In this document: in pieces, positions 27,190 through 30,030 of the stretch
How the letters are laid out: every line of letters starts with the position of its first letter
Numbering within the stretch: the first letter of the stretch is position 1
Assembly (NCBI RefSeq): GCF_004296335.1
Contig: NZ_SGIU01000002.1
Span: 1,377,882-1,441,881 of the forward strand
Reading direction: 5' to 3'
Length of the DNA stretch: 64,000 nucleotides
Origin: Flagellimonas allohymeniacidonis
Lineage (GTDB): Bacteria; Bacteroidota; Bacteroidia; Flavobacteriales; Flavobacteriaceae
Made by a program: the position numbers and the translations under genes
The notes under the pieces: generated by a model
Database searches by the model: none
What the model saw: the letters and a program-made list of their open reading frames with translations, nothing else
What the model was told of the DNA's origin: nothing

Positions 27190-30030
27190 ATGAACTATAA
27201 TTTCAGGGAAATTGAGGCCAAATGGCAAAAGTATTGGGCCAAGAACCAAACGTTCAAAGCATCGAACCAATCTGACAAACCCAAGTTTTATGGCTTGTCG
27301 ATGTTTCCCTATCCTTCTGGGGCGGGACTGCATGTAGGTCATCCCTTAGGGTATATTGCCAATGATATCTATTCCCGATACAAAAGGCACAAGGGGTTTA
27401 ATGTACTGCACCCCATGGGATACGACTCCTTTGGCCTTCCAGCGGAACAATACGCGATTCAAACGGGGCAGCATCCAGCGGTTACAACAGAGGTAAACAT
27501 AAAGCGCTATCGTGAACAGCTGGACCAATTAGGGTTTAGCTTCGATTGGAGTCGTGAAGTGCGTACTTCTGACCCTAAATATTACAAGTGGACACAGTGG
27601 GTGTTCATTCAGCTTTTTGATTCGTGGTATAATCAAAAAACGGATAAGGCAGAGGACATTCATGGTTTGATTTCCTTTTTTGAAAAAGAAGGGAATGCCA
27701 ACATCCAGGCAGCTTGTGACGATGATACACCTGATTTCAGTGCAGAGGAATGGGCTAGCTTTTCCGAAAAGACCAAACAAGAAGTGCTATTGAAATATAG
27801 ACTGACCTATTTGGCCGACACTGAAGTGAATTGGTGCCCGGCTTTAGGTACTGTACTGGCCAATGATGAAATTGTAAATGGCGTTTCTGAACGTGGGGGG
27901 CATCCCGTTATTCGGAAAAAGATGACACAGTGGAGCATGCGAATCACTGCGTACGCCCAAAGATTACTGGATGGGTTGGACACTGTCGATTGGCCCCAGC
28001 CCCTAAAAGATTCCCAAACCAACTGGATTGGACGCTCAGAAGGAGCTTCGGTCACCTTTAAGGTGAAGGAACATGATGCAAACATAGAGGTGTTCACCAC
28101 ACGGCCCGATACCATTTTTGGCGCAAGTTTCATGACCTTGGCACCGGAACATGAATTGGTCTCCCAAATAACCACTCCAGAACAAAAGGAGGCGATTGAT
28201 GCCTATATGGAAGCCACAGCCAAACGTTCCGAAAGGGACAGAATGGCCGATGTAAAAACTATTTCTGGGGTATTTACAGGAGCTTATGCCGAGCATCCTT
28301 TTACCAAGGAACCGGTACCCATTTGGATTGGGGATTACGTCTTGGCGAGCTATGGCACCGGAGCAGTTATGGCCGTTCCCTGTGGGGACCAACGTGATTA
28401 TGATTTCGCAAAACACTATAACATTCCCATTCCCAATATTTTTGAGGGGGTTGATATTTCGGAAGAAGCCTTTGCTGATAAAGAAAATACCGTGATTGCC
28501 AATTCTGACTTTTTGGATGGGCTTTCCTATAAGGATGCAGTCAAGAAAGTGATTGAAGCTCTGGAACAAATAGGTCAAGGCGAAGGCAAGATCAACTATC
28601 GCCTTCGTGATGCAGTTTTTAGTAGACAGCGCTATTGGGGCGAACCCTTTCCGGTATATTATGTTAATGGCATGCCTCAAATGATAGCCTTGGAGCACTT
28701 GCCCTTGGAATTGCCCGAAGTGGAAAAATACCTTCCCACCGAAACCGGAGAACCTCCGTTGGGCAATGCAACGCATTGGGCTTGGGATGCCAAAAACAAC
28801 AAAGTTGTTTCCAATGAGATGCTGAGCCAAGTTCAACATGACGGTCATTCCGAACTTGATTCGGAATCCCATGAGGGTGTGTATCCACTAGAATTGAACA
28901 CCATGCCCGGTTGGGCTGGAAGTTCCCAATACTTTAATCGGTATATGGACCCCCATAACGATGAAGCCATCTACTCACAGGAAGCCATTAATTATTGGCA
29001 AGATGTCGATCTTTATATCGGGGGAAGTGAACATGCGACCGGGCATTTGCTCTATTCCCGATTTTGGCAGAAGTTTTTGTTCGACAAGGGCGTTGCAACC
29101 AAGGATGAATTCGCCAAAAAATTGATCAACCAAGGGATGATTACAGGAACAAGTGCGTTTGTCTATAAAGACTTAGATTCTAACACATTGTTTTCGAAAG
29201 GCCTAAAAGAAGGCAAAAATGTCATTCCGGTACATGCCGACGTTTCTCTGGTTAATGCTTCGGATGAGTTGGATGTGGAAGCCTTCAAAAAATGGCAACC
29301 CGAATACAAAGATGCGGAGTTTGTTCTTGAGGATGGCAAATACATTGTTGGGCGTGAGATTGAAAAAATGTCCAAATCCAAATACAATGTCGTCAACCCC
29401 GATGCCATCTGCGAAGAATACGGAGCAGACTCATTGCGTTTGTACGAGATGTTCCTAGGACCCTTGGAGCAATCCAAACCTTGGAATACGGCCGGAATCA
29501 CTGGGGTACATTCCTTCCTGAAGAAAATGTGGAAATTGTATGACGCTATTGAGGAAAGTGAGCCTACCGCTGAAAATCTCAAAACGCTGCACAAAACCAT
29601 CAAAAAAGTGGAGGAGGATATCGAAAATTTCTCCTTTAACACTTCCGTGTCCACTTTTATGATCTGCGTTAACGAATTGACCGCGCAAAAATGTAAGAGT
29701 AAATCCATTTTGGAACCTTTGGCCATTTTAGTATCGCCTTATGCGCCGCATATCGCCGAGGAACTCTGGGAACGGTTGGGGCATAACGAATCGATAGCGG
29801 AAGCACCTTTTCCAATCTTTAAGGAAAAGTACTTGGTGGAAAGCACCAAGGAGTACCCGATTTCCTTCAATGGCAAACTTCGCTTTAAACTCGAACTTCC
29901 ATTGGATATGGGGAAAGACGAGATTGAAGCTGCGGTGATGGCCCATGAAAAAACACACGCACAACTACAGGGTCGCGAACCCAAAAAGGTCATTGTGGTT
30001 CCGGGAAAAATCGTCAATATCGTAGGGTAG
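27190..30030 (+). CDS. leuS: leucyl-tRNA synthetase
   Basis: A class I aminoacyl-tRNA synthetase of 946 residues. The HIGH-type motif is [14 protein letters not shown] near residue 40. The CP1 editing domain spans roughly 220-430 ([12 protein letters not shown]). The KMSKS motif reads [13 protein letters not shown]. The start was set at 27190 ([12 protein letters not shown]) because upstream codons in frame are unlike the family. Between NKVVSN and [14 protein letters not shown], about residues 542-562, lies an in-frame insertion encoded by a palindromic repeat; the flanking blocks are otherwise conserved. The GSSQYF segment has Gln where other LeuRS have Trp. Confidence 0.96.
28815..28875. 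repeat. palindromic repeat element inside leuS
   Basis: A ~60-bp element with two adjacent hairpins. One is a perfect 8-bp stem, ATTCCGAA (28847-28854) and TTCGGAAT (28860-28867), around a 5-base loop. The other is an imperfect stem (28819-28826 with 28832-28839, 6 of 8 paired). It translates to a [18 protein letters not shown]-like peptide. I recall this sequence type as a dispersed repeat in Flavobacteria, here inserted in a gene without breaking the frame. Confidence 0.7.

Follow-up and report, generated by a model that had tools for sequence, protein, structure and literature searches.

The window analysed here, a 64,000-nucleotide stretch of the Flagellimonas allohymeniacidonis genome, contains leuS on the forward strand (27190..30030), which encodes a leucyl-tRNA synthetase (LeuRS) of 946 residues with the PF13603 editing domain and class I domains recognised by Pfam. 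LeuRS loads leucine onto tRNA and is an essential enzyme. Inspection of the sequence and comparison with 69 genus genomes delimited a 60-bp in-frame insert in this gene (28816..28875, plus strand; codons 543-562) that encodes a 20-residue peptide, with conserved LeuRS on either side and the frame open throughout. An earlier note on this DNA had described a palindromic repeat lying in frame between conserved blocks of this essential enzyme, and the comparison upheld that description; the position it gave (28815-28875, residues about 542-562) was right apart from the exact bounds. A search with the C-terminal 406 residues (E ≤ 1e-30) found one leuS match in the whole 3.57-Mb genome, and as no second leuS was detected, the insert-bearing gene presumably works.

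The ten residues upstream of the insert (28786..28815, plus strand) are common, with small changes, to genus alleles with CGTC-type and LSAVEG-type inserts, and the downstream flank (28876..28899, plus strand), of a 13-letter type, was seen in the allele comparison only together with a lengthened loop. Structure prediction placed the insert between strands at residues 538-541 and 564-570, with residues 546-561 scoring below 50, in a model that was poor overall (mean pLDDT 60.9, pTM 0.41). Going by this model, the insert site is probably an exposed loop between the two strands. The peptide itself probably forms a surface loop that is neutral or nearly so.

The insert consists of two palindromic units arranged head to head with abutting heads. 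The left unit (28816..28843, minus strand; a pattern match with 1 mismatch) has a CGTC head at 28840-28843, a stem ATGTTGAA/CTCAGCAT in which 28832-28839 pairs with 28819-28826, the loop CTTGG (28827-28831), and the tail CTC; its stem is imperfect, with one G-T pair and one mismatch among 8 positions. The right unit (28843..28875, plus strand; an exact pattern match, also identified by its fold) starts with the head GGTC at 28843-28846, the first G of which is common to the left head, followed by a perfect 8-bp stem ATTCCGAA/TTCGGAAT (28847-28854 and 28860-28867) enclosing the 5-base loop CTTGA, and the tail CCCA. The two adjacent hairpins claimed in the earlier note were thus confirmed, the left one as an imperfect palindrome.

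Allowing ≤3 mismatches, the right-half pattern matched once in the 64-kb window, and none of 100 shuffled sequences gave a match. A general unit pattern, GTCATNNNGAACTTGNTTCNNNATC, was then scanned with ≤1 mismatch in 71 genus genomes and was present in 61 of them, at 0-29 units per genome among the matches listed, while the reversed pattern used as a control gave 0 matches in all 71. In 62 of the 69 units sampled, the three stem pairs left unconstrained by the pattern were all Watson-Crick, against a chance expectation of ~1.6%. The rarity of the pattern in shuffles and in the reversed control, together with the stem pairing, indicates a real structured repeat family.

The anatomy fits that of CGTC REPs, as far as these are described in the text of Di Nocera et al. 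(2013, PMC3733652): an unpaired CGTC head (variants TGTC and CCTC), a stem of 8-9 bp starting with AT pairs, a loop of 4-5 bases, a three-base tail that is mostly CCA, a predominance of head-to-head dimers, no dedicated transposase, and copies inside genes, tRNA synthetases included. The leuS insert shares the CGTC-type head, an 8-bp stem starting with AT, a 5-base loop, the arrangement as a head-to-head heterodimer and the location within a tRNA synthetase gene, and by stem and loop the nearest family, going by the text description in PMC3733652, is CGTC-2. It differs from that description in its right head, GGTC, which lies outside the named variants, in its tails (CCCA on the right, CTC on the left), in the abutment of its two heads, and in its very low copy number, with three units here and 0-29 in relatives, among the matches listed, where CGTC REPs form a repeated family. 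The main text of PMC3733652 contains 'Flavobacteri' 0 times and 'Bacteroidetes' once. GTAG REPs, which are mobilised by RAYT, are likewise small palindromes in pairs, but the units found here have no GTAG head, and no Y1 transposase match was found in this genome or in the four unit-richest ones.

RAYT was considered as a mobiliser and rejected: PF01797 occurs in 13 of the 71 genomes and is absent from this genome and from the unit-richest G005, G068, G064 and G029, so that RAYT does not track unit copy number; the insert resembles the CGTC REPs of PMC3733652 in this respect as well, as these have no transposase association in the text. A MITE with target duplication was also rejected, because the GAG present at both ends of the insert is not kept in other carriers, which show GAG/GAA, GAG/ACA and GAG/CAA.

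In the F. allohymeniacidonis genome itself the scan listed three units at ≤1 mismatch, two of which form the leuS insert, while the third (C2:47335-47359, locus L314) lies in a 241-residue frame with the PRAI (trpF) domain. No copy between genes was found among these matches, so the term 'dispersed', which the earlier note had applied to the element, fails for this genome and holds only across the genus. Its further statement that related repeats in flavobacteria are intergenic was largely borne out, as 59 of 89 units in the sampled loci (with some places counted twice) lie outside frames of 100 aa, often near a gene end. In L047, L049, L051 and L055, a CGTC unit stands 20-24 bases past the end of the leuS frame.

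The trpF gene may be a second hotspot. Tail-to-tail unit pairs sit at the matching trpF loop in four relatives, and trpF-like frames of G068 and G006 also contain units. In this genome, trpF carries its CGTC unit in frame at the loop occupied in relatives, together with what appears to be part of a second unit. Besides L314, units of the trpF type were seen in L040, L058, L148, L156, L318 and L319, with trpF confirmed by Pfam in L148, L156, L040 and L314 only. A single unit also occurs in metG in two loci (Pfam-confirmed in L138 only). The in-gene copies of leuS, trpF and metG share hydrophilic reading frames, H.EL.S.S and KQVQ.D, or frames closely resembling them, and the orientation of the pairs varies: the leuS insert is head to head, whereas the trpF pairs and several intergenic pairs of the genus are tail to tail.

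The full head-to-head dimer is rare outside leuS. Among the matches listed for this genome it has no second copy, so of the element that the earlier note expected elsewhere in the genome, only the one additional unit in trpF was recovered. In searches of 60 and of 71 genus genomes, 7 strong matches spanned most of both halves, all of them in leuS, among the matches listed. None of 17 weaker peptide matches in the genus lay in a matched frame of over 109 residues, but the two that spanned both halves (G068 and G006) fell within frames of 243 and 244 aa resembling trpF, on the opposite strand. Weak matches crossing the junction outside leuS, in G079, G029 and G066 and at one place of this genome (C2:1072384), had no unit nearby at ≤4 mismatches. 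A scan of 397 family genomes found the head-to-head pattern at 8 places in 7 genomes. Four are in leuS, namely G000, G206 and G399 at the insert site and G234 at a loop of the editing domain, and four are elsewhere (two of them in G403, the others in G208 and G289), of which the G208 place and one G403 place fall in frames of 319 and 286 aa. Among 395 genomes drawn from the order, the pattern occurred in one, F. allohymeniacidonis itself.

To place the insert among its relatives, which carry the names Flagellimonas, Allomuricauda and Muricauda, leuS was compared from 69 genus genomes (70 loci, as one genome was split in two) and from additional contig loci that were the best 80 of 590 and overlap the genome set. 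Repeat classes were assigned by hand-made peptide patterns. On this basis, 52 of the 69 genus genomes lack a repeat-type insert at the loop and 17 have one. The expectation in the earlier note that the 20 residues would be absent from relatives therefore holds for most of the genus, although a dimer of the same kind occupies the same leuS codon outside it (L184, L193, L194 and G206), in carriers that include loci titled Flavobacteriaceae NORP20, Cytophagaceae SAT51 and Leeuwenhoekiella HyVt-349. Together with the lack of a second full dimer in this genome, this means that both observations which the earlier note had named as speaking against it were made in part.

At least three dissimilar kinds of repeat occur at this one position, after VV.N. 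The first are the CGTC units, whose left unit also occurs by itself in other leuS alleles and whose spacers vary among the carriers of two units. The second kind, TGAGCGCAGTCGAAGGG, encodes the peptide LSAVEG, and the third is a GGGGGAG type, CCCTCTGGGGGA, encoding SPSGGDREGE. Repeats can be nested, as in L062, where PRLTDGQ lies within EMLK...VQHD. The LSAVEG kind is dispersed in 57 of 71 genomes, among the matches listed, with no reversed matches, and starts with TGTCACCC in leuS; judged by this sequence it may be a remote relative of the CGTC/TGTC units, in which case fewer independent families would be represented at the site.

The allele type correlates with the loop. Where an allele ends in VFPLEL, the loop comprises 18 residues or contains the third (GGGGGAG) kind of repeat; in the insert-free F-PLEL alleles the 18 residues include, for example, DLIDHKT. 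The loop was longer, at 23-64 residues, in every allele ending in (V/I)YPLEL, and 24 non-redundant alleles of this type comprised 16 with CGTC units, 4 with the LSAVEG kind and 4 others. The earlier note had predicted that removal of the insert would join NKVVSN to GVYPLELN as in relatives; this was not the case, as most insert-free relatives have residues resembling DLIDHKT-VFPLEL instead.

Since other, dissimilar repeats occupy the same loop in relatives, the loop seems to be a place where short repeats have settled time and again in marine flavobacteria. I consider it rather likely that an element of a known kind occupies an unusual hotspot here, as a head-to-head CGTC-type REP pair in LeuRS that arose by repeated accretion into a tolerant loop. 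Units would arrive repeatedly at the loop, singly or paired, through some mobiliser, or else reach it by very local conversion, and arrivals in essential genes would survive only where the loop is tolerant, the frame is kept and the peptide is hydrophilic. Where the repeat is no longer active, intergenic copies would be lost while in-gene copies stay trapped, since a deletion inside a gene would mostly disrupt the frame, and the counts in this genome point to such a course. Loss of free copies and trapping would explain why units were found here only in leuS and trpF; a genome may thus retain its last copies of a repeat solely within genes.

Repeated accretion is favoured by the dissimilar and sometimes nested kinds at one codon site, by the differing spacers, by the left unit standing alone in other alleles and by the common reading frames in leuS, trpF and metG. 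On the other hand, the abutting dimer was found in the genus only in leuS, among the matches listed, with no donor pool of whole dimers seen, and neither a target duplication nor a mobiliser came to light, as this genome lacks RAYT. The possible kinship of the LSAVEG type with CGTC/TGTC units and the poor model behind the loop exposure also count against it.

The age and spread of the insert were assessed with 10 parsed carriers of both units, a subset of all carriers, giving 45 pairs. Third-position identity was 0.83 within the insert compared with 0.46 before and 0.48 after it (ten codons each side; codon permutation p ~5e-5). In all 45 pairs the insert was more alike than the 50 upstream codons, and in 43 of them it was more alike than either near flank; the other two pairs, which speak against repeated accretion, both include L120, a decayed copy. 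Near flanks were used for these pair counts, as the far downstream comparison window was out of register for L193 and L194 (nucleotide identity 0.37). Identity dropped at the insert edges, with 18 of 20 flanking codons at 0.22-0.53; the remaining two, one on each side, reached 0.80 (upstream) and 1.0 (downstream). A LeuRS tree was built from 139 rows, reduced to 116 non-redundant ones, with the loop left out. The F/Y loop type required 21 changes on it, close to the mean of 22.0 (minimum 17) in 300 shuffles, so that insert type has no signal on the leuS tree. Both the excess of third-position identity over the flanks and this missing signal agree with repeated accretion, with the reservation that recombination may blur the tree.

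The same data bear on the main alternative, a single insertion into an ancestral Y-PLEL allele of leuS. The insert would then have passed to other species and genera through conversion or transfer of very short tracts, and most lineages would have lost it. The carriers share the same codon and unit order, and loop A occurs in 9 of 9 leuS right units compared with 8 of 27 units elsewhere, which points to one origin or to selection for Asp and weighs against repeated accretion. A single origin would also agree with the invariable coincidence of Y-PLEL and a lengthened loop, and with the rarity of the dimer elsewhere. In the block just upstream (core 480-545), moreover, the four leuS genes nearest to that of F. 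allohymeniacidonis are all carriers, at 83% versus 82% for the next, which again is contrary to repeated accretion. Against a single origin, similarity ends at the insert edges, dissimilar kinds occupy the site, and copies also sit at the editing-domain loop, as a whole dimer in G234 and a left unit in L129 and L115. Taken together, a single origin appears unlikely, though it deserves consideration. Transfer with long flanks was rejected, as identity ends at the edges and the other leuS blocks are mostly about as close to non-carriers, the carrier-nearest upstream block being the contrary point.

The insert site is not the only loop of LeuRS to hold such sequences. A second loop, located ahead of TTRPDT in the editing domain, behaves alike: 47 of the 69 loci parsed there have repeat-type inserts, versus 17 of 69 genomes at the insert site (both counts using a slightly wider set of peptide patterns), which favours accretion into tolerant loops. 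In L095, L112, L118, L126, L127 and L128 this loop holds an NSELKTQNS-like peptide insert. The leucine-specific domain before KMSKS (29155-29361 in the window, LeuRS residues 656-724) is hypervariable across the genus, with lengths of 67-162 in the 61 of 70 loci that were parsed and a mean pairwise identity of 0.43 versus 0.91 in the mid block (2211 pairs). Whole LeuRS frames range from 936 to 1200 residues in the genus, whereas control frames vary far less, IleRS frames being 1134-1159 aa where whole (69 of 71 genomes) and the second matches in the same 71 genomes, putative ValRS, 880-937 aa.

This variability also fits two wider proposals. In five leuS loci the editing-domain loop holds a whole DUF559 domain flanked by GC-rich repeats, and it is conceivable, albeit improbable, that LeuRS in marine flavobacteria is an open-loop enzyme on which diversifying pressure acts, capturing repeats and DUF559 at fixed loops. 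The DUF559 unit with its GC-rich repeats would then be a mobile element able to insert in frame into essential genes and to be retained in the protein without splicing. Alternatively, the inserts may be selected for, with the surface loops of LeuRS being diversified and repeats supplying new peptide. The length range of LeuRS relative to the control enzymes and the hypervariable leucine-specific domain are in line with such selection, but no partner or pressure was identified, the same repeats are also found in trpF and metG, loop tolerance alone may suffice, and the control enzymes are just two; I regard this as quite improbable. A role of the hairpins as RNA or DNA structure in leuS, slowing translation or affecting mRNA stability and kept by selection for pairing, would accord with the complementary stems and the high identity of the insert DNA at third positions, but is highly improbable given that stems are broken without compensation in some carriers, e.g. 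L073 and L120, and that the local RNA fold of the insert region showed no unusual stability (z -0.68).

Among known systems, accretion of CGTC-type units into leuS is comparable to the Rickettsia palindromic elements RPE-4, RPE-6 and RPE-7; a parallel to Rickettsia palindromic elements drawn in the earlier note was upheld. According to PMC3767692, these are ATGAC-tagged repeats that lie in genes, with different groups at one orthologue site; RPE-7 occurs in IleRS and PheRS-beta, the listed insert lengths are 68-192, and the authors favour one origin while leaving hotspots possible. The likeness to the elements of PMC3767692 lies in the position in frame within a conserved gene and in the different repeats at one site in orthologues; the differences are that the kinds at the one leuS codon look dissimilar and that the carriers are not Rickettsiales. 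In-gene CGTC REPs and site-sharing by RPEs are therefore already known, and the part that appears new, judged from the sequence comparisons, is a leuS hotspot of dissimilar repeats across genera, of which no report was recognised in the portions of the literature searched. As the anatomy of CGTC REPs fits and no known leuS hotspot was found, this would be a known kind of element in a new setting. Dissimilar repeats at one codon across species and genera, insert-free relatives and length-stable sister enzymes make the question of hotspots versus one diverged ancestor, raised for Rickettsia in PMC3767692, testable in marine bacteria with many cultured strains.

The endonuclease-like DUF559 domain was seen next to GC-rich repeat peptides in several genus members, in the leuS loci L071, L098, L099, L122 and L123 and in other genes. 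Among the matches listed, it lies in frame inside MetH in L262 and L275, inside RecG frames in L284, L288 and L298-L301, and at the start of the HemD frame in L282, L297, L302 and L303. DUF559 was Pfam-checked in L122, L262, L275, L284 and L282, and the others were judged by frame length and start.
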